Made by a program: the position numbers and the translations under genes
Notes under the pieces: model-generated
What the model was told of the DNA's origin: nothing
The model's database searches: none
Seen by the model: the letters and a program-made list of their open reading frames with translations, nothing else
Assembly: GCA_017471765.1 (NCBI GenBank)
Contig: JAFURT010000035.1
Coordinates: 1-46,548 of the forward strand
Length of the DNA: 46,548 nucleotides
Direction of reading: 5' to 3'
From: Clostridia bacterium
GTDB lineage: Bacteria; Bacillota; Clostridia; Oscillospirales; Acutalibacteraceae
In this document: positions 1,002 to 10,841 of the stretch, in pieces
Position numbering within the stretch: position 1 is the first letter of the stretch
Layout: each line of letters opens with the position of its first letter

Positions 1002-1030
1002 ATTATATCACAAATTCTTTGTTTATTCAA
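1002..1030 (-). promoter_or_regulatory. Promoter of the four-helix-bundle gene pair
   Basis: On the minus strand, TTGAAT (1025-1030) and TATAAT (1002-1007) are separated by 17 bases. The -35 box abuts the first GTGAAAT repeat at 1031, so the repeat array ends exactly where the promoter begins. Confidence 0.65.
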
Positions 1031-1211
1031 GTGAAATATTCGCCTTGTGGCGAATGTGAAATAATTCCTTTGCGGAAATTGTGAAATATTGCTCCTTCGT
1101 CGCAATGTGAAATGAAATTCGTTCCTTCACACGCCGCAGGCGTATTTCACTGCCGCAGGTAATTTCACACGCGCCAGCGTATTTCACTCGTTCCGCAGGA
1201 ACGAATTTCAC
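1031..1211. repeat. GTGAAAT/ATTTCAC palindromic repeat array
   Basis: Four direct copies of GTGAAAT occur at 1031, 1056, 1081 and 1107 (spacing 25, 25 and 26). Four inverted copies, ATTTCAC, occur at 1144, 1162, 1181 and 1205. Most of the intervals are themselves short hairpins, for example ATTCGCC/GGCGAAT between the first two copies. The two halves also form a larger inverted repeat, with GAAATTCGTTCC near 1114 matching GGAACGAATTTC near 1198. The array lies between the tRNA-Gln terminator and the promoter of the four-helix-bundle gene. An open frame runs through it, but its protein is only translated repeat. Confidence 0.85.
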
Positions 1212-1212
1212 T

Positions 1213-1248
1213 GAAAAAAGCCATTCGCGAAAGCGAATGGCTTTTTTC
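1213..1248 (-). terminator. Terminator of tRNA-Gln
   Basis: The stem CCATTCGC/GCGAATGG is flanked by A and T runs, giving an intrinsic terminator immediately 3' of the tRNA on the minus strand. The symmetric A and T tracts would let it work in both directions. Confidence 0.75.
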
Positions 1249-1426: not shown

Positions 1427-2455
1427 TTACAATCTGTCGGCTAAGTCCAAAATCAGACGCTCGGTCTTTTCCCAACCCAGACAGGGATCGGTGATAGACT
1501 TACCGTAAATATGCTCGTCCATCTTCTGGGCGCCATCCTCAATGTAGCTCTCGATCATCAGGCCTTTGACTAGCTTCTTGATGTCACTGTTCTGATTGCG
1601 GCTGGTGACGATCTCTTGGGCGATACGGATCTGCTCCAGGTATTTCTTGCCGGAGTTGGCGTGGTTGGTATCCACAACAGCCGAAGGATTGGCCAGACCG
1701 GATTTTTCATACATCTCGTGCAGTTTAAGCAAATCCTCATAGTGGTAATTGGATACGCTCTTGCCGGCGAAATCGGTATATCCGCGCAGGATAGCATGGG
1801 TCAGTGGATTGCCTTTGCTCTCCACCTCCCAGCCACGGTACAGGAAAGTATGGGGATGTTGACCGGCAGTCACCGAGTTCATCATCACCGTCAGGTCACC
1901 GCTGGTAGGGTTCTTCATGCCCACCGGCTCATCCAGGCCGCTGGCCACCAGGCGGTGCTGTTGGTTTTCCGCCGACCGGGCTCCCACAGCCACGTACGCC
2001 AGCAGGTCAGACAGATAGCGGTGATTTTCGGGGTACAGCATCTCATCTGCACAGGAGAAGCCATAATCTCGCAGCGCTTCCATGTGCAGGTCACGGATGG
2101 CAATGATGCCCTCCAGCATATCCGGCTTCTTATTCGGGTCAGGCTGGTGGAGCATACCCTTGTATCCATCGCCGGTAGTGCGGGGCTTGTTGGTGTAGAT
2201 GCGGGGAATGATGATGATCTTATCTGCCACCTTATCCTGCACCGTGCGCAGACGGCCGATATAATCCAGCACCGGCTCCCGGTGATCGGCAGAGCAAGGC
2301 CCGATAATCAGCAGGAACTTGTCCGACTCACCGGTGAACACCGCCTTGATGGCCTCGTCACGCTGAGCTTTGACCTGTGCCATCTGCTCGGATACGGGAA
2401 ACTGCTCCTTAATCTCCTTCGGGATGGGCAGTTTACGATTGTATTGCATATTCAT
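1427..2455 (-). CDS. aroF: 3-deoxy-7-phosphoheptulonate (DAHP) synthase, type I
   Basis: This enzyme condenses phosphoenolpyruvate and erythrose 4-phosphate to DAHP, the first committed step of the shikimate pathway. It is 342 residues and of the E. coli AroG/AroF/AroH (type I-alpha) kind, with the metal/PEP motif IIGPCSADH, then PRIYTNKPRTTGDGYKG, VGARSAENQQHR, GMKNPTSGD and DTNHANSGKK, and full length for the family. An open frame extends to a TTG at 2464, but the ATG at 2455 sits nine bases from GAAAGG and aligns better with relatives. It is the last gene of the aromatic operon, eight bases after tyrA, and is followed by a strong terminator. Its distal position in an operon with a Phe/Tyr leader peptide implies that carbon entry is controlled by Phe/Tyr-tRNA charging. 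Which of aroF, aroG or aroH it corresponds to cannot be decided from sequence. Confidence 0.95.
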   Translation of the reverse strand: MNMQYNRKLPIPKEIKEQFPVSEQMAQVKAQRDEAIKAVFTGESDKFLLIIGPCSADHREPVLDYIGRLRTVQDKVADKIIIIPRIYTNKPRTTGDGYKGMLHQPDPNKKPDMLEGIIAIRDLHMEALRDYGFSCADEMLYPENHRYLSDLLAYVAVGARSAENQQHRLVASGLDEPVGMKNPTSGDLTVMMNSVTAGQHPHTFLYRGWEVESKGNPLTHAILRGYTDFAGKSVSNYHYEDLLKLHEMYEKSGLANPSAVVDTNHANSGKKYLEQIRIAQEIVTSRNQNSDIKKLVKGLMIESYIEDGAQKMDEHIYGKSITDPCLGWEKTERLILDLADRL

Positions 2456-2460
2456 TGATA

Positions 2461-3321
2461 TCAACCTTTCTTAGCAAATTTCTTGCGACGGGCGGTGGAG
2501 AGACGCATCATACTGCGCATCTCTTCACGGTCACCGGTTTTTACACAGGTATACAAACGGTCAAAAGCCGTCCGGTACAGATCCATCTGCTCCAGCAGAG
2601 CTTTTTGATTGGACAGGAATAGCTCACTCCACATATCGTCGTTGATGTTGGCGATACGAGTCAGATCCCGAAAAGAATCGCCGGTATAGCGCTCAATAGC
2701 CGGGTCATCACAGGCACACATCAGGGAAACGGCGATGCAGTGGGTCAACTGGGACAGGAAGGCGATCATCTCATCGTGTCGCTCGGGGGAAAGTCTGGAC
2801 ACATCGGCAAAGCCAAGCTCCTCCCCCAGGCTTTCGCACAGCTCGATTGCGCCAAAGGTGTTCTTTTCCGTTGGCACCACCAGATAGTTGGCCCCCCGGA
2901 AGATACTGTCATCGCTGTTCTCTACCCCATATACCTCACGGCCAGCCATGGGGTGTGCGGCGATAAACTCTACGCCAGTCGGCAGAAGAGACTGAATTTC
3001 GTATACTATACAGCCCTTAACGCCCGTAACATCAGTGATGATTGTCCCGGCACGGATAAGGTGACCGTATTCCTTTATCCAGTCGACAAAAACATGGGGA
3101 TACAGGGCAAAGATGATCAGGTCAGCCTCTGCAATCAGTGCCGGCTCTACCTCGGTGGTTCCCTTATCAATCAGGCTGTGTTCCTTGGCGTAGGCAACAG
3201 AGGATTCCTCCTTCGTGATGGCGTTGATGGTGTAGCCTTTTTTCTTGAGCGCCATGGCATAGCTACCGCCCAGCAAGCCAAGGCCAATAATCAAAATATT
3301 CTTTGAAGGATCAAGCTTCAT
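2461..3321 (-). CDS. tyrA: Prephenate dehydrogenase
   Basis: This enzyme oxidatively decarboxylates prephenate to 4-hydroxyphenylpyruvate with NAD(P)+, the Tyr-specific branch. It is 286 residues. The N-terminal Rossmann fold begins ILIIGLGLLGGSYA (GxGxxG) at about residues 9-22. The catalytic region AAHPMAGREVYG is near residue 120, and the helical C-terminal domain carries SQLTHCIAVSL and DSFRDLTRIA. There is no C-terminal ACT domain and no fused chorismate mutase, so no obvious internal Tyr-sensing module. The ATG at 3321 lies inside the 3' end of aroA (11-base overlap), indicating coupled translation. Confidence 0.93.
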   Translation of the reverse strand: MKLDPSKNILIIGLGLLGGSYAMALKKKGYTINAITKEESSVAYAKEHSLIDKGTTEVEPALIAEADLIIFALYPHVFVDWIKEYGHLIRAGTIITDVTGVKGCIVYEIQSLLPTGVEFIAAHPMAGREVYGVENSDDSIFRGANYLVVPTEKNTFGAIELCESLGEELGFADVSRLSPERHDEMIAFLSQLTHCIAVSLMCACDDPAIERYTGDSFRDLTRIANINDDMWSELFLSNQKALLEQMDLYRTAFDRLYTCVKTGDREEMRSMMRLSTARRKKFAKKG

Positions 3322-4519
3322 GGTATTTCAGTCCAATCTGTAAAGTTTCAATAACATCAAAAAAGTCCGGGTAACTTTTTGCCACCGCTTCGGCACCGTC
3401 AATCGTACCACCGGTAACCGAGCAAAGCAGTGAAAGCGCCATTACAATGCGGTGGTCGTTATGACCGCACAACACCTGCGACGGTGGCTGTAAGCGCCCC
3501 GGATGTACCGTAACTGTATTTTCCGCTACGGTGACCGCTATGCCGAATTTCGCCATCTCCTCGGCCATAGCGGTAGCCCGGTCGCTCTCTTTGATGCGAA
3601 GGCGGGCGGTGCCGGTAAAAGAGGCCCCTCCATGGGCCGCAGACAAAGCAAACAACACCGGAGCCAGGTCCGGGCAATCGGACAGGTCAAACTGCTTCTC
3701 ACCGGCAGCCATTTGCCGGTAAAAATCCCGATAGACCCGGTCGCCCTGCAAAGTTTCAGGTGTAAGGCCAAACACCTTTACATCTCCGTTTAAGAGATTA
3801 AACCCGTCCAGAAAAGCGGCGTTGGAGTAATCCCCCTCCACAGTGTAGTCGAAATCGCCATAGGTCTGGTTGCCCGGGATAAAAAACACATCTGCCTCAC
3901 GGGTAATGGAGATACCAAAAGTCCGCAGTGCCGACAAGGTCAAATCAATGTAAGAGGCGCTCTCGAAGCCCCCGGTGACAGTCAGGCGACTATCCCCTTG
4001 TAATAACGGCAAAGCAAACAACAGGCCGGTAATAAACTGGCTGGACACATCACCACGAACAGTATAGTCACCCGGCTTCAGCACACCGCACACAGTGACA
4101 GATGTGGCCGATTTTTTCAGAACAATTCCCTGCTGACGACAAATCTCTTCATAAACACCGAGAGGGCGTTCCAGCAAGCGCTGACTACCGGTCAGCGTGA
4201 CCGGCTGGCCACACAGCATACATAAGGGGAGTAAGAAGCGCAGGGTGCTGCCACTCTCGTTACAAGGAAGTACGGCATCCGACGGTAGGTGCAAGGGGTC
4301 AATGCCGCCGATTTTCACCGTATCGCCATCCGGTACGATCTGGGCCCCCATTGCCTGGAGACAGTGAAGCGTTGCCTCAATATCCTTTGACCAGGCCAAG
4401 CCACGGATGGTGCTCCCTCCGGACAAGGCACCGCAAATCAGCGCCCGGTGCGCCATACTTTTTGATGGCGGCGCTGTCACCGTTCCCACAGCACGGGACG
4501 GTGTGATGGTCACTTGCAT
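3311..4519 (-). CDS. aroA: 3-phosphoshikimate 1-carboxyvinyltransferase (EPSP synthase)
   Basis: This enzyme transfers the enolpyruvyl group from PEP to shikimate 3-phosphate, the sixth pathway step. It is 402 residues from the ATG at 4519 (MQVTITPSRAVGTV). GGAGG lies seven bases upstream, and the longer open frame to 4594 is only overlap with aroQ. Motifs seen are APPSKSMAHRALI (shikimate-phosphate and PEP contacts), NESGSTLRFLLPL, DVSSQFITGLL, and near the C-terminus LRIKESDRATAMAEEM and GHNDHRIVMALSL. Residue 97 and its surroundings match the ordinary NxGTxxR-type site, here NESGSTLR. The gene overlaps aroQ upstream and tyrA downstream. Confidence 0.95.
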   Translation of the reverse strand: MQVTITPSRAVGTVTAPPSKSMAHRALICGALSGGSTIRGLAWSKDIEATLHCLQAMGAQIVPDGDTVKIGGIDPLHLPSDAVLPCNESGSTLRFLLPLCMLCGQPVTLTGSQRLLERPLGVYEEICRQQGIVLKKSATSVTVCGVLKPGDYTVRGDVSSQFITGLLFALPLLQGDSRLTVTGGFESASYIDLTLSALRTFGISITREADVFFIPGNQTYGDFDYTVEGDYSNAAFLDGFNLLNGDVKVFGLTPETLQGDRVYRDFYRQMAAGEKQFDLSDCPDLAPVLFALSAAHGGASFTGTARLRIKESDRATAMAEEMAKFGIAVTVAENTVTVHPGRLQPPSQVLCGHNDHRIVMALSLLCSVTGGTIDGAEAVAKSYPDFFDVIETLQIGLKYHEA

Positions 4520-4947
4520 GTCGTCGCCTCCAGTAAGGCATCCATTGCCATCAGATACCCGGCAAAGCCGTACCCCATAACCGTTTTCAGGCAATAGGGA
4601 CGAATATAGCTCACCTGACGGAAATCCTCCCGCAGAGAAACATCGGAGATGTGCACCTCCACTGTAGGAATACCCACGGCCTTAAGGGCGTCCAACAAAG
4701 CTACGCTGGTATGGGTATAGGCGGCAGGATTGATGACGATGCCGTCTACGTTTCCATAGGCCGCCTGGATCTTATCCACCAGATCTCCCTCGTGGTTGGA
4801 CTGGTAGATTTCCACCTCAACGTCAATGCGGGCGGCGTGTGCCTGGATATCCCGGCACAGGTCCGCATAGGTAGCGTACCCATACACATCCGGCTCACGG
4901 ATACCCAGCATATTCAAATTCGGGCCATTAAGCACTAAAATTTTCAT
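4510..4947 (-). CDS. aroQ: 3-dehydroquinate dehydratase, type II
   Basis: This enzyme dehydrates 3-dehydroquinate to 3-dehydroshikimate. At 145 residues it has the size of the small dodecameric type II enzymes and is unrelated to the AroD aldolase-type enzyme. It shows the family pattern LVLNGPNLNMLGIREPDVYG (the lid, with a catalytic Tyr and Arg), QSNHEGDLVDKI, NPAAYTHTSVAL, and VEVHISDV near residue 100. The ATG at 4947 has GAGG upstream and overlaps the end of the aroE-aroK gene by 20 bases. The stop overlaps the aroA start region. Confidence 0.95.
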   Translation of the reverse strand: MKILVLNGPNLNMLGIREPDVYGYATYADLCRDIQAHAARIDVEVEIYQSNHEGDLVDKIQAAYGNVDGIVINPAAYTHTSVALLDALKAVGIPTVEVHISDVSLREDFRQVSYIRPYCLKTVMGYGFAGYLMAMDALLEATTCK

Positions 4948-6178
4948 GGTTAAAATCCTCTTTTATGGTTTGTACAGTCTCCGCAATCGCATTGGCCGAG
5001 CGGATATGCGCATCACACACACGGCAATAGATGGGGTAGCGTTCAGCATACCGATGCTCCAAATCAGCACGATTGGAGGACAAAGGCCGGTCGGAAGTTG
5101 CAACTAGTTGCTCGAGCGGGCGGTCGATAAAATACAAGATGCCATTCTCACGAAGGATACGCACATTTTCTTCTCGCAGAATTGCCCCACCACCGGTAGC
5201 AATAACCGTGTGTTGCCGTGCTGCGACTTGGTGAATGATTCGCTGTTCTATATCCCGGAATCCAGCCTCCCCCACCGCTTCAAAAATAGCCGGGATAGGG
5301 CGACCATCCTGCCGCACGATTTCCTCATCCGTATCAATGAATTCCATACCAAGGGCAGAAGCTAAAGCCTTGCCTACGGTGGATTTACCACACCCCGGCA
5401 TCCCCACCAGCACGACATTCTGCTTGGAGGCCAGCAACTCCCGATAGATAGCCTCCACCTTTTCCGGCGGTGCTGTGTGCCCGATGAATTTCTCTGCTGC
5501 AAAGGCCGCCTGAGCCACCAGCATATACAGCCCACCAACCGCCGGAATACCGGCCGCCTTGGCGTCACATACCAGACGGGAGCGCAGGGGATTATACACC
5601 GCATCCACTACCCCCTCCAGCCGGGGATAGGCCGCCACATCCACAGCGGCTGTACCGATCTTAGGGAACATACCGCAGGGGGTGGTGTTTATGATAATTT
5701 GTGTATCCATATGTCGGGTAGCTTCCTCGTAGGTAATGCAGTCCTCCTGGCCGGTACGGGAAACCCGTAGTGCCTCAGCACAACCTAAACTTTTTGCCAC
5801 CGCCAGCGCCGTCTTAGAGGTGCCGCCACTGCCTAAAATGAGCACTTTCTTCCCTTGTAGAGAAATACAACTGCGCTCAATCAGTGCCGTCATACCGGAA
5901 AAGTCTGTGTTATACCCAATCAGCCGTCCACCGTCATTGACGACTGTATTTACTGCGCCGATGGCTTTGGCGGTATTGCTGATCTCGTCCAAATACGGCA
6001 GTACGGCTTCCTTATACGGAATAGTCACATTGACAGCCCGAAACTCCCGTGCCATCATAAAGGACGCCAGTTCCTCAGGTGCCAGCTCTTTCAGTTCGTA
6101 CTCATATCCAAACAACTTCCGGTGAATTTCCGGCGAAAAACTATGACCGAGATGCTCGGCAATCAATCCGTACGTCAT
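4928..6178 (-). CDS. Bifunctional shikimate dehydrogenase-shikimate kinase fusion
   Basis: One 416-residue frame carries two consecutive pathway steps. Residues 1 to about 250 are shikimate dehydrogenase (AroE), with the substrate site SFSPEIH near 13, NVTIPYK with catalytic Lys56, GAVNTVV, GYNTDFSGM with Asp92, the NADP Rossmann loop LILGSGGTSKTA at 113-124, and VGGLYMLVAQA near 214. Residues 253-416 are shikimate kinase (AroK), with P-loop GMPGCGKST at 259-267, the DTD metal site near 282, ATGGGA near 327-332 and a RPLSS lid near 364. A short linker joins the domains with no stop or frameshift. The fusion would convert dehydroshikimate to shikimate 3-phosphate on a single chain. Its start overlaps aroC's stop (ATGA). 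In most bacteria these are separate genes. Confidence 0.95.
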   Translation of the reverse strand: MTYGLIAEHLGHSFSPEIHRKLFGYEYELKELAPEELASFMMAREFRAVNVTIPYKEAVLPYLDEISNTAKAIGAVNTVVNDGGRLIGYNTDFSGMTALIERSCISLQGKKVLILGSGGTSKTALAVAKSLGCAEALRVSRTGQEDCITYEEATRHMDTQIIINTTPCGMFPKIGTAAVDVAAYPRLEGVVDAVYNPLRSRLVCDAKAAGIPAVGGLYMLVAQAAFAAEKFIGHTAPPEKVEAIYRELLASKQNVVLVGMPGCGKSTVGKALASALGMEFIDTDEEIVRQDGRPIPAIFEAVGEAGFRDIEQRIIHQVAARQHTVIATGGGAILREENVRILRENGILYFIDRPLEQLVATSDRPLSSNRADLEHRYAERYPIYCRVCDAHIRSANAIAETVQTIKEDFNHENFSA

Positions 6179-7269
6179 GCTTCACCCAACCAATCTGTCC
6201 CATGCCGCCACGCCAGCATATCGCACAGCGTCAAGGCAGTCACGCTGTCCACCACCACTGCGGCTCGGTGAACGATGCAGGGATCGTGCCGCCCGGTAGA
6301 CTGCAGGGTGGCATCCGTCCCGGTCTGCATATTGATTGACTCTTGTTCCCGGGCAATCGTGGGTGTAGGTCGGACAGCGCAGCGGAACAATAGGGGCATA
6401 CCGTTAGTGATACCGCCGTTGATACCGCCACTGTTATTGGTAACAGTGGTTACACCGTTATCTGCCATACGGAAGGGGTCGTTGGCTACAGAGCCATACA
6501 TATCCGCCAGGCGGAATCCGGCCCCAAACTCCACGCCCTTGATAGCCGGAATGGAGAAAAGCGCGTGGGACAACAGTCCCTCCACCGTATCAAACCACGG
6601 CTCACCAAGCCCTGCCTCCAAACCGGTCACTGCCGTTTCCAGCACACCACCGACGCTGTCGCCGTTCTGCTTCGCCGCCAGGATGCACGCTGTCATCTTC
6701 TCGGCGGCAGTAGAATCCAGCACCGGGAAAGAGCTATCTGCTAAAGCAGCAAAATCCGCTTCCAGCCGGTCAAAGGGGCGATCATCAACACCGCCAAGGC
6801 GAGAAATATGGGTGGCAAGGTGAACACCTTTACGCTTTAGTGCCGGCAACACCAAGCCGCCAGCCGCCACCAGCGCCGCCGTAATACGGCCGCTAAAGTG
6901 CCCACCACCCCGGTAATCCTCATAGCCACGGTATTTGCAATTCGCTGTATAATCCGCATGAGAGGGACGGGCGAGCCACCGGGTAGCCGCATAATCCTTC
7001 GAGCGTGTGTCGCTGTTGGGGATGCGGATGCACACCGGTGTACCTGTAGTGTAGCCATTAAACACACCGCTTTCGATCACAAAGGGATCCGGCTCCTGCC
7101 TGGAGGTGGAAATCTGCCCACCGGGACGGCGACGAGCCAGCATAGCGGAAATAAACACCTCATCCACCGGTAAACCCGGTGCAAGCCCATCGATTACCAC
7201 ACCGATAGACGGGCCATGACTCTCCCCAAACAGGGTGACAGAAACATGACTCCCAAAGGTATTTTTCAC
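6175..7269 (-). CDS. aroC: Chorismate synthase
   Basis: This enzyme removes phosphate from EPSP to form chorismate, using reduced FMN. It is 364 residues. Signatures seen are GESHGPSIGVVIDG with the catalytic His near the N-terminus, ARRRPGGQISTSRQEPD, the DYRGGGHFSGRITA region, and GGINGGITNGMPL near 285. The start is GTG at 7269, ten bases from a strong AAAGGAGG, and overlaps the aroB stop as GTGA. The stop overlaps the next start as ATGA. No NADPH-flavin reductase domain is fused, so flavin reduction must come from elsewhere. Confidence 0.95.
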   Translation of the reverse strand: MKNTFGSHVSVTLFGESHGPSIGVVIDGLAPGLPVDEVFISAMLARRRPGGQISTSRQEPDPFVIESGVFNGYTTGTPVCIRIPNSDTRSKDYAATRWLARPSHADYTANCKYRGYEDYRGGGHFSGRITAALVAAGGLVLPALKRKGVHLATHISRLGGVDDRPFDRLEADFAALADSSFPVLDSTAAEKMTACILAAKQNGDSVGGVLETAVTGLEAGLGEPWFDTVEGLLSHALFSIPAIKGVEFGAGFRLADMYGSVANDPFRMADNGVTTVTNNSGGINGGITNGMPLLFRCAVRPTPTIAREQESINMQTGTDATLQSTGRHDPCIVHRAAVVVDSVTALTLCDMLAWRHGTDWLGEA

Positions 7270-8285
7270 GGCGCCAGCACCTCCTTTATCAGCGTTTCAA
7301 GTTCGCCAAACGTTATCTGTTTAAAGTTAAACTTCCCTATCTCGTGGACATAAACCACCGTGATGGTCTCCCCTGTCGCTTTTTTGTCGTGGCGGCAGGC
7401 TTCCAGCAGCGCATCGGCACCGCCGATCAGCTCCGTGGGCAAGCCCAGCCTCTTCAGCACCGGAAGCAGCCGCCGCCGCACATCCGGGGCGCACATCGAC
7501 ACCATCCCGATGGCTACACACTCACCATGGTAATAAGTGTCCATGTTGTACACGCTCTCCACGGCGTGGGCCAGCGTGTGACCAAAGTTCAGCACCTTCC
7601 GCAGACCGCTCTCACGCTCGTCCTCCTCCACTACCTGCTTCTTAATCAGCAAAGCACGACGGAGGATATCCTCCATGACAGTGGGATCGGACAGATCGGC
7701 CGTTTCGAACAGAGAAAACAACGCACTGTCACCGGTCAGCGCCATCTTCACAGCTTCTGCCAGGCCGTTTGCCACCTGCCGGGCAGGCAATGTAGACAGC
7801 GTATCCGGGTCAATCAGCACCGCTTTCGGCGGATAAAACGCTCCGACGATATTCTTAATCCCCTTAAAATCAATGGCTGTTTTGCCACCGATGGAGGAAT
7901 CTACCTGGGAAAGGACGGTGGTGGGGATGTTGTAAAAATCGATTCCACGCATAAAAACAGAGGCCACAAAACCGGCTAAATCGCCCACGACACCGCCGCC
8001 AACCGCCACCACACAGTCAGTGCGGGTAAAGCCTTCCTCGACCAGCCTTTCCAACAAATAGGTAAAGGTGGTCATCTGCTTGGAATGCTCCCCTTGGGGG
8101 ATGGTCACTACCACCGGCTGACGGCAACGGGCCGCTACCGTCTCGGCATAGGCCGCCGGAACACCGCTATCCGTGACAACAAGCACTTTGCGGTGGAGAT
8201 TTAGCAGCTCCGCTACTCTCTGTAAACAACCTCGTTCCAGGTAGATCGGGTAAGATCCTGCGGAGGTTTTCACTTGAATGGTCAT
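7266..8285 (-). CDS. aroB: 3-dehydroquinate synthase
   Basis: This enzyme cyclises DAHP to 3-dehydroquinate using NAD+ and a divalent metal. It is 339 residues. Visible motifs are PQGEHSKQMTT, the NAD-binding VAVGGGVVGDLAGFVASVFMRG, PTTVLSQVDSSIGGKTAIDF, a metal-ligand Glu in NGLAEAVKMAL, and the two His ligands in LNFGHTLAHAVE and YHGECVAIGM. The ATG at 8285 is preceded by GAAGG. It sits 12 bases after pheA and overlaps aroC. Confidence 0.95.
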   Translation of the reverse strand: MTIQVKTSAGSYPIYLERGCLQRVAELLNLHRKVLVVTDSGVPAAYAETVAARCRQPVVVTIPQGEHSKQMTTFTYLLERLVEEGFTRTDCVVAVGGGVVGDLAGFVASVFMRGIDFYNIPTTVLSQVDSSIGGKTAIDFKGIKNIVGAFYPPKAVLIDPDTLSTLPARQVANGLAEAVKMALTGDSALFSLFETADLSDPTVMEDILRRALLIKKQVVEEDERESGLRKVLNFGHTLAHAVESVYNMDTYYHGECVAIGMVSMCAPDVRRRLLPVLKRLGLPTELIGGADALLEACRHDKKATGETITVVYVHEIGKFNFKQITFGELETLIKEVLAP

Positions 8286-8297
8286 ACTGACACCTTC

Positions 8298-9386
8298 TTA
8301 TACACGCATTTCCTTTTCATAGGTGCCCAGCACCTTCACATGGCTACAGCACTCCTTAAGGCTACGGAGCATGGCCTTGCCTTCTTCGCCGGACAGGTCA
8401 CCCTCGCCCTCAGCATAGAAGTAATAGTCCCAAATCAGCTCCTTTGTAGGACGGCTTTTTAGAGCGCGGAGGTTAAACCCATGCTCCCCGATAACAGAAA
8501 TTGCCCGGCCCAGCGAGCCGGCGGTGTTATTCACCGTGAACAGCATAACGAAGTGGTTGTCACGCTTGCTTGGCGTACGCTGGGCACGGGAAAACACCGC
8601 AAACCGAGTGGTGTTTTGGCTACTTTCATTGATGTGCCCTTCCAGCTTCTTCAGACCGAATTTTTCAGCAGCCTCTGTACTGCCGATAGCGGCAATATCG
8701 TGCCGCCCCATTTCCGCCACCTGCCGGGCGGCTACAGCGGTATTCACCGCCTCAACAGTTTCAAAGCCGTGGCGCTCAATATATGCCGCACACTGTCCCA
8801 GTGCTTGGGGATGGCTGATGACGGTCTTAATTTCATCCATGGTGGTACCCTTTACCGCCAGCAGATTCTGCACGATCTCTGCCTCATACACGCCAGTGAT
8901 AAACAGTGAGCCGAAAAAGGCTAAGTCCATCACCTTGCCTACATCGCCGTTAAAGCTGTTTTCCACCGGAAGCAGAGCACAGTCACAGGTGCCGTCTTCC
9001 ACCGCCTTATAGGCGGCGGCAAAATCAGCACAAGGCACGGCTGTGGCATCCGGGAAAATGCGCTCTGCCACAATATTGGCAAAGGCGCCCTCTACCCCAC
9101 TGTACGCTACACGCATCCCATCCAGCAGACGGCGTTGCATGCTCTTGGACAGTTCGATGGTGTTCCGCAGAAAACGGACGTAATAGGAACGGTATTCCTC
9201 ATTTTCGATCAAACCGGTGTTCTTTTTGATAATCTGCTCTTCCCGGCCACCATCTTCCACGGGCAAACCGTGTTGCTTCTTATATTCGGCCACCAGTCTG
9301 ACTGCATCCATACGCTTTTCAAACAGCCTGGCCATGTCCCGGTCAGTTTCATTAATAAGCTGTCGGGCTTTTTCTAAATCCGTCAT
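8298..9386 (-). CDS. pheA: Bifunctional chorismate mutase-prephenate dehydratase
   Basis: This enzyme converts chorismate to prephenate and then to phenylpyruvate. It is 362 residues. Residues 1 to about 85 form an AroQ-type chorismate mutase helix bundle (DRDMARLFEKRMDAVRLVAE). Residues about 90-270 are prephenate dehydratase, with VAYSGVEGAFANIVAE, LPVENSFNGDVGKVMD, a TTRFAV-type motif near 260 and SHPQALGQC. The C-terminal ACT domain has GSLGRAISVIGEHGFNLRALKSRP, corresponding to the Phe-binding GALV and ESRP motifs, with Lys replacing Glu in ESRP. Feedback inhibition by Phe is therefore likely but not proven. AAGGGG lies eight bases before the ATG. It is the second gene of the operon. Confidence 0.95.
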   Translation of the reverse strand: MTDLEKARQLINETDRDMARLFEKRMDAVRLVAEYKKQHGLPVEDGGREEQIIKKNTGLIENEEYRSYYVRFLRNTIELSKSMQRRLLDGMRVAYSGVEGAFANIVAERIFPDATAVPCADFAAAYKAVEDGTCDCALLPVENSFNGDVGKVMDLAFFGSLFITGVYEAEIVQNLLAVKGTTMDEIKTVISHPQALGQCAAYIERHGFETVEAVNTAVAARQVAEMGRHDIAAIGSTEAAEKFGLKKLEGHINESSQNTTRFAVFSRAQRTPSKRDNHFVMLFTVNNTAGSLGRAISVIGEHGFNLRALKSRPTKELIWDYYFYAEGEGDLSGEEGKAMLRSLKECCSHVKVLGTYEKEMRV

Positions 9387-9391
9387 AACGA

Positions 9392-10582
9392 TTACCCCTT
9401 ATTGTACTCCTCATACAAGGCCCTGAAAGCAGGCAAAGAGCGCTCGATCTGCTCGTAGCTGACACAATAGGCAATACGCACATAGCCGGTTACACCAAAA
9501 CTGTCACTGGGCACCAGTAACAGCTCATGCTTTTTCGCTCGTTCGCAAAAAGCACTTGCATCCGGCTCCAGAGCCTTCATAAACAGGTAGAAAGCGCCCT
9601 GCGGCTCTACCGCCTCATAGCCCATCTCTGTGAGGGAGCCATAAAGCAGCTTCCGGTTGCGGTCATAGGCGGTCAAATCCGGCGGTGTTCCGTCACAGGC
9701 GGCCACTGTCTGCTGAAGCAGGTTGGGGGCACACACATAGCCGAGACTGCGTCCGGCACCGCACACAGCGGCAAACACATCCCCAGCCTGAGCCATCTTC
9801 GGAGATACAAAGATATAGCCGATACGCTCACCGGGGATAGACAGAGACTTACTATAAGAATAGCAGACAACCGTATTGTCGTAATAGGCAGGGATATACG
9901 GCACCTTTACATCACCGTATACCAACTCACGATAAGGCTCGTCGGCAATTATGACGATGGGCTCACCGTACTCGGCAGATTTCGCCGTCAGCAGGTCAGC
10001 CAAGCCGCGAATCGTCTCCTCGCTGAACACCGCACCGGAGGGATTGTTGGGGGAATTTACAATAACCGCCCTGGTCTTGGAAGTAATAGCCGCAGACAGG
10101 GCGGCAAAGTCAACATCCAGCGTATCCGGGTCACAGGGTACCACCACCGGCGTCGCCCCGGAATTAGCGGTAAACACCCGGTATTCCGGGAAGAAGGGCG
10201 CCAGTAGCAGCACCTCATCACCGGGGCCGGTGAGAGCACGCAGGGTGATGGTCAGCGAAGCAGCGGCGCCGCAGGTCATGTAAATGAGGTTAGGATACGC
10301 CTCCACGCCGAAACGGGCGACGATGTTCTCTGCCAGCTTCTGCCGCACCCCCTGGTCACCGGGAGCGGAAGTGTAGCCATGGAGCGACACCGGGTCACAC
10401 TCGGCAATCAGTTTTTGCATTGTCTCCCCCACAACGGCCGGGGCAGGGATACTGGGATTGCCCAGACTAAAATCAAACACGTTCTCTTCCCCAATTTCCC
10501 CACGGCGCACACGGGCATACTCAAAAATCTCCCGGATTACCGAGCTTTTCTTACCAAGGGCTAACATATCTTTTGCTATCAT
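9392..10582 (-). CDS. Class I PLP-dependent aminotransferase (probable aromatic/aspartate type)
   Basis: This 396-residue fold-type I aminotransferase is the first structural gene of the aromatic operon. The PLP lysine lies in SYSKSLSIPGERIGY, with upstream NSPNNPSGAVF (the PLP-ring Asn), the DEPYRELVYGD Asp, and a C-terminal carboxylate-binding Arg in GYVRIAYC. Its place directly before pheA and in an operon with tyrA argues that it transaminates phenylpyruvate and 4-hydroxyphenylpyruvate. Sequence alone cannot exclude an aspartate aminotransferase. GGAGG lies nine bases before the ATG, between the attenuator terminator and the gene. Confidence 0.9.
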   Translation of the reverse strand: MIAKDMLALGKKSSVIREIFEYARVRRGEIGEENVFDFSLGNPSIPAPAVVGETMQKLIAECDPVSLHGYTSAPGDQGVRQKLAENIVARFGVEAYPNLIYMTCGAAASLTITLRALTGPGDEVLLLAPFFPEYRVFTANSGATPVVVPCDPDTLDVDFAALSAAITSKTRAVIVNSPNNPSGAVFSEETIRGLADLLTAKSAEYGEPIVIIADEPYRELVYGDVKVPYIPAYYDNTVVCYSYSKSLSIPGERIGYIFVSPKMAQAGDVFAAVCGAGRSLGYVCAPNLLQQTVAACDGTPPDLTAYDRNRKLLYGSLTEMGYEAVEPQGAFYLFMKALEPDASAFCERAKKHELLLVPSDSFGVTGYVRIAYCVSYEQIERSLPAFRALYEEYNKG

Positions 10583-10600
10583 TTTTCTCTACCTCCAAAT

Positions 10601-10647
10601 AAAAAATCCGCACCCTCACTATGCCCTGCGGCACATGCGGTTGCGGA
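10601..10647 (-). terminator. Attenuator terminator in the aromatic operon leader
   Basis: On the minus strand TCCGCA (10647-10642) pairs with TGCGGA (10612-10607). An inner GTGCC/GGCAT stem closes on GCAG, and TTTTTT follows at 10606-10601. It lies between the leader peptide and the aminotransferase ribosome site. A terminator inside the transcription unit, upstream of the first gene, only makes sense as a regulated one. Confidence 0.88.
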
Positions 10648-10702
10648 CTGTCCGTAAACTCTACACTCGCATCAGCGAGCAAAAGCAGAGCACGGGCAGT
10701 CC
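10645..10702 (-). promoter_or_regulatory. Competing stem in the leader RNA (candidate anti-terminator or protector)
   Basis: RNA segment GGACUGCCCG (10702-10693), within the last third of the leader peptide, can pair with CGGACAGUCC (10654-10645) with one mismatch. Inside it nest CTCTGC/GTAGAG and the perfect hairpin CTCGC-TGAT-GCGAG (10679-10666). The 3' arm shares UCC with the terminator's 5' arm, so the two structures exclude each other at their junction. Depending on where the ribosome stalls, this stem acts either as the anti-terminator or as a protector. The switching logic is inferred. Confidence 0.6.
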
Positions 10703-10737
10703 ATCATAAAAAAGTAATAATACGCAGTAAAGAACAT
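10672..10737 (-). CDS. Leader peptide with clustered Phe and Tyr codons
   Basis: This 21-codon open frame starts at ATG 10737 and stops at TGA 10674-10672. AAAGGAG lies ten bases upstream and the promoter start about 27 bases upstream. It reads MFFTAYYYFF and then MMDCPCSAFAR, so seven of the first ten residues are Phe or Tyr (codons TTC TTT, TAT TAT TAC, TTT TTT). It is followed by mutually exclusive stems and a U-tract terminator ahead of an operon that makes exactly Phe and Tyr. This is the classic form of a ribosome-mediated attenuation peptide such as PheL. It contains no Trp codon, matching an operon without Trp-branch genes. The peptide itself is expected to have no function beyond sensing tRNA-Phe and tRNA-Tyr charging. 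Confidence 0.9.
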   Translation of the reverse strand: MFFTAYYYFFMMDCPCSAFAR

Positions 10738-10770
10738 ATCCGTGGCTCTCCTTTCAAACTTGATGCCTAT

Positions 10771-10799
10771 ATTTTACTCCCATATTGTGGGCTTGTCAA
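10771..10799 (-). promoter_or_regulatory. Promoter of the aromatic operon
   Basis: A perfect TTGACA (10794-10799) and TAAAAT (10771-10776) on the minus strand have a 17-base spacer. A strong constitutive-looking promoter fits control by attenuation rather than by initiation. I see no operator-like palindrome over it. Confidence 0.85.
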
Positions 10800-10841
10800 G
10801 AAAAAATCAAGGATTTTGCAAGATTTTTTTGCACTTCTTGC

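Follow-up and report, generated by a model that had tools for sequence, protein, structure and literature searches.

In Escherichia coli, pheL and trpL act by a three-state attenuation mechanism, in which a short leader peptide rich in the regulated amino acid is encoded ahead of the structural genes (pheA in the case of pheL) and an antiterminator competes with a terminator. Leader-peptide attenuators have also been described for hisS*/hisZ in bacilli (PMC2965389), and his operon leader peptides have been reported in six, five and six species of the B. cereus group, the Eubacteriales and the Erysipelotrichales, respectively (PMC9413887). In the ilv-leu operon of S. aureus, attenuation by a leader peptide is supported by mutants (PMC5794164), and the uORFC-13-1 motif of the Acholeplasma aroF gene is a computationally predicted candidate uORF with Phe codons, a promoter and a terminator, represented by 24 sequences from Acholeplasma and unassigned environmental sources with at least one Phe codon (PMC8632094). 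For Actinobacteria, one study reports that Phe or Tyr operons are not preceded by a conserved RNA structure (PMC1262725). An open literature search for Phe leader attenuation in Clostridia returned no paper, which does not in itself show absence from print, and no closer precedent than the his, ilv-leu and Acholeplasma aroF leaders appeared among the papers listed by searches of the open literature.

The locus described here lies in a window of 46,548 nucleotides (the whole stretch of DNA that was analysed) and very probably encodes a ribosome-mediated transcription attenuator that senses both charged tRNA-Phe and charged tRNA-Tyr. It resembles pheL and trpL in its peptide rich in the regulated amino acids before pheA, in the competition between antiterminator and terminator and in the three-state logic that is proposed for it. 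Unlike pheL, it encodes two regulated amino acids, F and Y, and its strand 1 corresponds to the Shine-Dalgarno and spacer before the start codon. Moreover, the Phe codons pair into a hairpin in the computed fold of pheL, whereas the codon block of the window-type leaders showed no preference for pairing with the arm. The original prediction had placed the leader with the PheL kind, which suits its logic but not the position of strand 1, nor was any Rfam family matched. The Shine-Dalgarno of pheL also pairs downstream in computed folds (0.42–0.83 at 80–100 nt, at most 0.2 at 110–130 nt and 0.98 in the complete RNA), which means that pairing of this kind is not by itself a distinguishing feature. 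In trpL, the computed fold joins the Shine-Dalgarno GGGUAUC to a GAUACCC stretch immediately upstream of the terminator.

The Firmicutes his attenuators share with this leader the runs of regulated codons before the regulated genes, with a terminator and an antiterminator, but they concern another amino acid and other genes (PMC2965389, PMC9413887). The S. aureus ilv-leu operon is likewise a biosynthetic operon attenuated by a leader peptide in a Firmicute, but it responds to Leu/Ile, and the antiterminator predicted for it pairs with the U-tail of the terminator, whose stem stays intact (PMC5794164). The uORFC-13-1 motif, compared by its description only, also lies upstream of a DAHP synthase gene, and that description includes no Tyr block and no Shine-Dalgarno protector (PMC8632094). 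Since leader peptides were already known in Firmicutes (his, ilv and Acholeplasma aroF), the present leader is a variant and not the first of its type. In the original prediction, aromatic genes of Firmicutes were said to be normally controlled by T-box or TRAP, a protein that binds repeated GAG/UAG triplets. Leader peptides do have precedents in Firmicutes (PMC2965389, PMC9413887, PMC5794164, PMC8632094), and the same genome carries T-boxes before pheS and tyrS.

Leader elements and downstream operon

All of the elements, from the promoter to the operon, were located on the minus strand (Table 1). The consensus promoter, the well-placed ribosome site, the 21-codon frame with FF, YYY and FF inside its first ten codons and the U-tract terminator before the first structural gene were present as originally described. 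The T-tract was followed by GGAGG and then by the ATG of the aminotransferase gene at 10582. When the leader RNA (10765-10583) was folded, as had been proposed, a z-score of -3.37 was obtained and 0 of 200 shuffles were as stable.

Table 1. Positions of the leader elements and operon genes in the window.
Feature	Position	Strand	Basis
Promoter TTGACA (10799-10794), 17 nt, TAAAAT (10776-10771)	10771..10799	-	11/12 matches
Ribosome site of the leader ORF, AGGAG	10752-10748	-	sequence
Strand 1 (probable protector), AGAG-C-CACGG, within Shine-Dalgarno and spacer	10740..10749	-	own-versus-permuted duplex energies
Leader peptide ORF (predicted to be translated), MFFTAYYYFFMMDCPCSAFAR, 21 codons, stop TGA 10674-10672	10672..10737	-	ORF translation; frame-specific aromatic codons (67 leaders)
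Regulatory codon block FFTAYYYFF, codons 2-10, 7 Phe/Tyr codons	10708..10734	-	sequence
Strand 2, antiterminator 5' arm, GGACTGCCCGTGCTCT, within leader ORF	10687..10702	-	covarying pairs
Strand 3, antiterminator 3' arm, end CAGTCC 10650-10645	10645..10662	-	covarying pairs
Intrinsic terminator, TCCGCA 10647-10642 with TGCGGA 10612-10607, T-tract TTTTTT 10606-10601	10601..10647	-	sequence
Aminotransferase (PRK06836 family), first structural gene	9392..10582	-	NCBIfam NF005305, 537.6 bits, cut-off 376
pheA, chorismate mutase-prephenate dehydratase (CM-PDT)	8298..9386	-	mutase domain above cut-off; best dehydratase match below cut-off
aroB	7266..8285	-	NCBIfam, above cut-off
aroC	6175..7269	-	NCBIfam, above cut-off
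aroE-aroK fusion	4928..6178	-	two separate domains, best matches below curated cut-offs
aroQ	4510..4947	-	NCBIfam, above cut-off
aroA, start not fixed (ORF list: upstream start 4594)	3311..4525	-	274.7 bits, just below aroA cut-off 287.25
tyrA, prephenate dehydrogenase	2461..3321	-	best matches below curated cut-offs
aroF-type (type I) DAHP synthase	1427..2464	-	TIGR00034, above cut-off

The terminator and strand 3 had three bases in common (10647-10645). Across 16 leaders, the six terminator base pairs were conserved in 11 to 16 cases each. The RNAalifold consensus of 47 sequences corresponded to the terminator stem. A simple terminator scan found none, which is probably explained by the loop limit of 8 in the scan and the bulge in this stem. 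The two stems had been regarded as mutually exclusive, and in this genome that holds only in part: their overlap is limited to the three shared bases, and most of both stems persisted when the free RNA of the window leader (L099) was folded statically, with 0.80 for the antiterminator and 0.82 for the terminator.

Among the 67 aligned leaders described below, 64 carried a promoter with at least 10 of 12 matches, against 9 of 67 after one simple shuffle each, and in 62 of these 64 the -10 box ended 27–43 nt before the leader start codon. Owing to this short distance, the untranslated leader would itself be short and consist mostly of Shine-Dalgarno and spacer (strand 1), given the transcription start site that we infer.

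The leader preceded a nine-gene operon for the common shikimate pathway and the synthesis of Phe and Tyr, complete as had been proposed, in the order aminotransferase, pheA, aroB, aroC, aroE-aroK, aroQ, aroA, tyrA and aroF-type DAHP synthase. One ORF (4928-6178) corresponded to a shikimate dehydrogenase fused to a shikimate kinase, and several adjacent genes overlapped by a few bases. Just beyond the operon end, two Gut-1 RNA matches were located on opposite strands, at 1029-1118 (plus) and 1139-1213 (minus), adjoining a tRNA gene (1253-1323).

Recurrence of the leader in related genomes

The best 80 of 313 loci with relatives of the aminotransferase gene were fetched, and an F/Y-rich frame before that gene was accepted in 19 of these 80, of which 15 had the layout of the window and 4 (L006, L009, L010 and L016) had other stems. 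The other 61 of the best 80 were counted as leaderless in the sense that no leader was accepted, and several A/T-rich frames among them scored as aromatic (e.g., L037, L048 and L063). Alignment A1 (MAFFT) combined the window leader with 15 others that were chosen by eye among the 80 loci, and a covariance model, R1, was built from these 16 leaders with the F/Y codons included. This model gave no match at E up to 1 in the 61 leaderless loci, and matched L006 at E 0.82.

In genome searches, R1 matched 29 of 398 genomes of the family, 29 of 394 of the order, 7 of 391 of the class and 2 of 398 of the phylum. Since these lists overlap, the total was 58 distinct genomes, with one match each, distributed over 30 genus labels and 10 family labels (f1, f15, f16, f17, f19, f20, f23, f34, f40 and f99); six of the 58 contained copies of training leaders (L092, L097, L099, L100, L102 and L124). 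Alignment A2 had 67 rows, the 58 genome leaders found by R1 and 9 leaders from the aminotransferase search; the copy of the window leader, L004, L008, L012, L014 and L015 were left out as copies of genome hits, and L007 as a near copy of L094. Two further leaders found with a second model (R2, below) raised the set to 69, and all 69 preceded an aminotransferase (37), pheA (17) or aroF (15) gene, the 9 leaders from the aminotransferase search having been chosen by their downstream gene. The match of the downstream gene began 301 and 175 nt on in L098 and L105, respectively. Because R1 is blind to the downstream gene, the agreement counts as independent evidence wherever a genome hit lay outside the training set, while the F/Y content of R1 matches is partly circular, as the model holds the F/Y codons.

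The second model, R2, ran from the arm to the terminator without the aromatic codons, yet it was trained on R1 hits. Its alignment (A3) comprised the window leader and 46 of 54 listed sequences, L097, L118, L135, L136, L140, L141, L142 and L144 having been dropped by hand, several of them with deviant arms. When the order was searched, R2 matched 31 of 394 genomes, and 30 of these had an F/Y leader before an aromatic operon. The 31 consisted of 28 of the 29 genomes matched by R1, the two new cases and one false match (L176), a two-way terminator without an aromatic operon; G713, matched by R1, was missed. The new leaders were MTIPFAYFYYYLSRAARIL before aroF (L168) and MLRYFLNGNGRFYGFDAADPLYSDSRKK before an aminotransferase gene (L175). 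Fully new cases were few, because most of the 30 had leaders in the training set, and most of the 28 common genomes had contributed leaders or near copies to the R2 alignment. G419, G494, G531, G543 and G606 were nonetheless recovered although their leaders had been dropped from it. A weak second match was obtained on the opposite strand at the same place in G455, G530 and G696. Relatives with the terminator but lacking the small frame or its aromatic codons had been named originally as a finding that would speak against an attenuator, and no relative with the stems but no aromatic frame was found with R2 in the 394 genomes of the order.

The comparison of relatives also confirmed that the aromatic codons are bound to the reading frame. 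Read in the ORF frame from the start codon to the arm, the 67 leaders contained 447 Phe/Tyr codons among 789, and the other two frames gave 127 of 789 and 149 of 788; for Tyr alone the numbers were 231, 6 and 56. The codon blocks held 216 F and 231 Y in total and Trp in 0 of 67 leaders, which fits an operon without trp genes. Both amino acids were present in 66 of the 67 leaders, with at least two codons of each in 58. L149 had no Tyr codon, which, like the 61 leaderless loci, speaks against the attenuator reading. The distance from the start of the last aromatic codon to the arm was 8 nt in 46 leaders and 11 nt in 15; the remaining six had 5, 7 or 14 nt. The stop codon was located between the antiterminator arms in all 67, at 16–49 nt after the start of the 5' arm and 14–47 nt before the end of the 3' arm, L146 being the closest case. 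An Arg codon directly preceding an aromatic codon was CGA in 26 of 27 cases in the 67 leaders (e.g., L011 and L092); this uniformity might be explained by slow decoding of the codon, a constraint on the RNA or common ancestry.

The antiterminator stem and its probable protector

Whether the stem 10702-10645 is the antiterminator or the protector had been left undecided in the original prediction; it is the antiterminator, and its pairs covary. The unaided RNAalifold consensus of A1 was this stem, with no further conserved domain. For its 13 named pairs, 87.9% of the cells of A1 held standard pairs, in comparison with 20–39% for slid partners. None of 500 shuffles reached the percentage paired, the pair types or the covariation score, 5 reached the number of pairs and 1 the count of cells changed on both sides. 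The values rose in A2, where 90.5% of 654 cells were paired (21–35% for slid partners), compensatory changes on both sides were present in 38 cells and in 8 of 10 pairs, and 0 of 500 shuffles reached any of the five measures; this alignment was fitted to the model, so that its counts lean towards it, and related sequences inflate them. The sequences also argue that the conserved arm is kept as RNA rather than as peptide: it is usually read as DCL, DCP, DCS or GCP, but the frames of L118, L126 and L168 run through it in a different register, giving AARLL, AARLM and AARIL, with the RNA arm retained.

The protector is probably the Shine-Dalgarno and spacer before the leader start, paired with the 5' arm of the antiterminator. 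In folds of the free leader, the stretch just before the start codon usually held strand 2, and in the window 10749-10740 had its partner at 10695-10687. Duplexes of positions -20 to -1 with their own arm had a mean of -12.78 kcal/mol in the 67 leaders, in comparison with -9.85 kcal/mol (sd 0.29) for permuted partners, and 0 of 2000 permutations reached the own value (z -10.2); with 51 dissimilar leaders z was -9.4. No excess was obtained in control pairings, with z 0.2 for codons 2–7 against the arm, z -0.4 for a far-upstream stretch and z 0.4 for the spacer against the stretch after the arm; the reversed spacer had a weak excess (z -3.4). Within sets of equal arm prefix, z was -5.4, -2.5, -1.9 and -1.7. 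The 67 leaders that suggested strand 1 also served to test it, L168 and L175 being the only held-out cases, and in these two, respectively, 16 and 20 of 67 foreign arms outscored the own arm and 8 and 9 of 67 foreign spacers outscored the own spacer.

The complete free RNA was also folded. At values of at least 0.5, pairing of strands 1 and 2 was obtained in 56 of the 67 leaders; the corresponding counts were 9 for the antiterminator and 63 for the terminator. Strands 1 and 2 remained below 0.5 in 11 leaders, and the window leader was an exception, with 0.21 for this pairing. As its antiterminator value was higher, the OFF state without a ribosome is not cleanly given by the static fold in this leader. 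The same level of pairing was reached with 207 of 536 foreign spacers and with 21 of 67 own spacers when reversed. In the nascent RNA, before strand 3, strands 1 and 2 paired at 0.5 or more in 67 of 67 leaders (1.0 in the window, and 0.997 and 1.000 in the held-out L168 and L175). Foreign (398 of 536) and reversed spacers (53 of 67) also paired at this stage, so that the nascent test alone says little.

These data have to be weighed between two accounts of the same stems. We lean towards a self-gating leader, in which the protector strand is the ribosome-binding region itself and not the regulatory codons, and the first ribosome opens the switch; in this reading the architecture would have been conserved in 10 or more family-level groups within a single class, its strands drifting with compensation. 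If so, an unloaded leader would close twice over, terminating transcription and hiding its own Shine-Dalgarno, and the element would sense translation initiation as well as elongation on the Phe/Tyr codons. It is improbable, but worth setting out, that the ribosome only masks or frees strand 2, the complementarity of Shine-Dalgarno and spacer having no protector role; it may then only tune leader translation, and an untranslated leader would read through. The free RNA of the window, which favours the antiterminator (0.80) over the 1:2 pairing (0.21), is what this simpler account would expect, and a purine-rich Shine-Dalgarno and a pyrimidine-rich arm give -9.85 kcal/mol even when swapped between species; in addition, 398 of 536 foreign spacers paired in the nascent RNA. 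Nevertheless, own partners were 2.9 kcal/mol better, which 0 of 2000 permutations equalled, the neighbouring codon block had no such excess, and in the complete RNA the own spacers paired in 56 of 67 cases against 207 of 536 for foreign ones.

The accounts that dispense with attenuation by a leader peptide fared worse. A chance U-rich stretch was rejected by the frame test. A T-box, a riboswitch or a leader bound by a protein, with an F/Y frame incidental to a U/A-rich stretch, is very unlikely, even though protein and tRNA regulators of aromatic genes are known in Firmicutes and this genome itself uses T-boxes, including those before pheS and tyrS. Searches with Rfam release 15 gave no match of the leader at the gathering score in the window and none in 10560-10830 at E up to 5, so that a T-box or known riboswitch was rejected and the original statement that there is no T-box at this locus was borne out; the strong frame specificity of the F/Y codons and the single domain in the consensus fold speak against the wider class. 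Least credible of all is a functional, membrane-like peptide encoded by an independent short gene, the stems being its plain terminator. The peptide is hydrophobic and its pattern is conserved across 30 genus labels, but what is conserved is the F/Y content and the RNA arm, with F and Y interchanging between leaders, and 69 of 69 leaders precede a Phe/Tyr/shikimate or aminotransferase gene. A functional microprotein was rejected by the frame changes in L118, L126 and L168, where AARL or AARI replaces GCP or DCL and the RNA arm is kept. The reading as a Phe/Tyr leader-peptide attenuator passed the originally proposed checks on sequences.

Proposed switch and other leaders

In the proposed attenuator, four strands would compete: strand 1, the Shine-Dalgarno and spacer; strand 2, the GGACTG... 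arm in the last part of the leader ORF; strand 3, the ...CAGTCC arm after the stop codon; and strand 4, the 3' half of the terminator. With ample Phe and Tyr, the ribosome would reach the stop codon between strands 2 and 3, thereby blocking 2:3, so that 3:4 would form and transcription would end. If Phe or Tyr were scarce, it would stall in the F/Y block, which separates strand 1 from strand 2; the stall would split 1:2 and free strand 2, the antiterminator 2:3 would form and the operon would be transcribed. In the absence of a ribosome, 1:2 would form ahead of the synthesis of strand 3 and lock strand 2, and 3:4 would then lead to termination with the ribosome site of the leader occupied. This last state is the least certain, above all for the window leader. 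The scheme builds on the parts, their order, the frame, the covariation and the excess complementarity of strands 1 and 2 observed in the leaders; what it proposes beyond these is that ribosomes stall, that the events are timed as described, that transcription does terminate and that both amino acids elicit a response.

The states were modelled as equilibrium folds with a simple mask, in which ribosome footprints and timing are assumptions. In the stalled state, with everything before the arm removed, the antiterminator reached at least 0.5 in 56 of 67 leaders; this number rose to 66 (the exception being L118) when the 3' half of the terminator was also omitted. The terminator still reached at least 0.5 in 61 of 67 leaders in the complete stalled state, so that exclusion would have to be kinetic and not strict. 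In the state with the ribosome at the stop codon (removal to about 13 nt past it), the terminator was formed in 67 of 67 leaders.

The switch would add a well-conserved Phe/Tyr leader-peptide attenuator to Clostridia-type bacteria, and the 69 leaders constitute a natural alignment of attenuator strands, which suggests a protector built on the Shine-Dalgarno region. Together with the T-boxes before pheS and tyrS, the attenuator would provide two sensors of one signal in one cell, which could be compared directly.

The source genome contained 12 T-box matches, 7 of them over the cut-off, and none of the 12 was at the window leader or elsewhere on the contig of the window. Eight T-boxes were fetched. 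One preceded pheS (L084) and one tyrS (L087), where the specifier amino acids are presumably those of these genes; others were located before a PaaK-like (phenylacetate-CoA-ligase-like) gene (L086) and a 2-isopropylmalate synthase-like gene (L085), and those of L089–L091 before ileS, thrS and asnS, by the look of the sequence only.

Rfam searches of 14 loci, 13 leaderless ones and L006, found no known RNA leader at the aminotransferase gene, and the only T-box in them (L006, 1413-1660) was more than 3 kb upstream. L006, L009, L010 and L016 had F/Y-rich leader frames (e.g., MKKMYYSYFRFYYYAASL) followed by different stems after the stop codon, which perhaps represent a second attenuator architecture at the same operon; these four were folded and were not counted among the 69. 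Additionally, a TTAAC-GTTAA palindrome was observed before the aminotransferase gene in 6 of the 61 leaderless relatives (of the best 80 loci of 313), namely L020, L021, L025, L033, L037 and, in a shorter form, L073, and we take it to resemble the operators of TrpR-type repressors.
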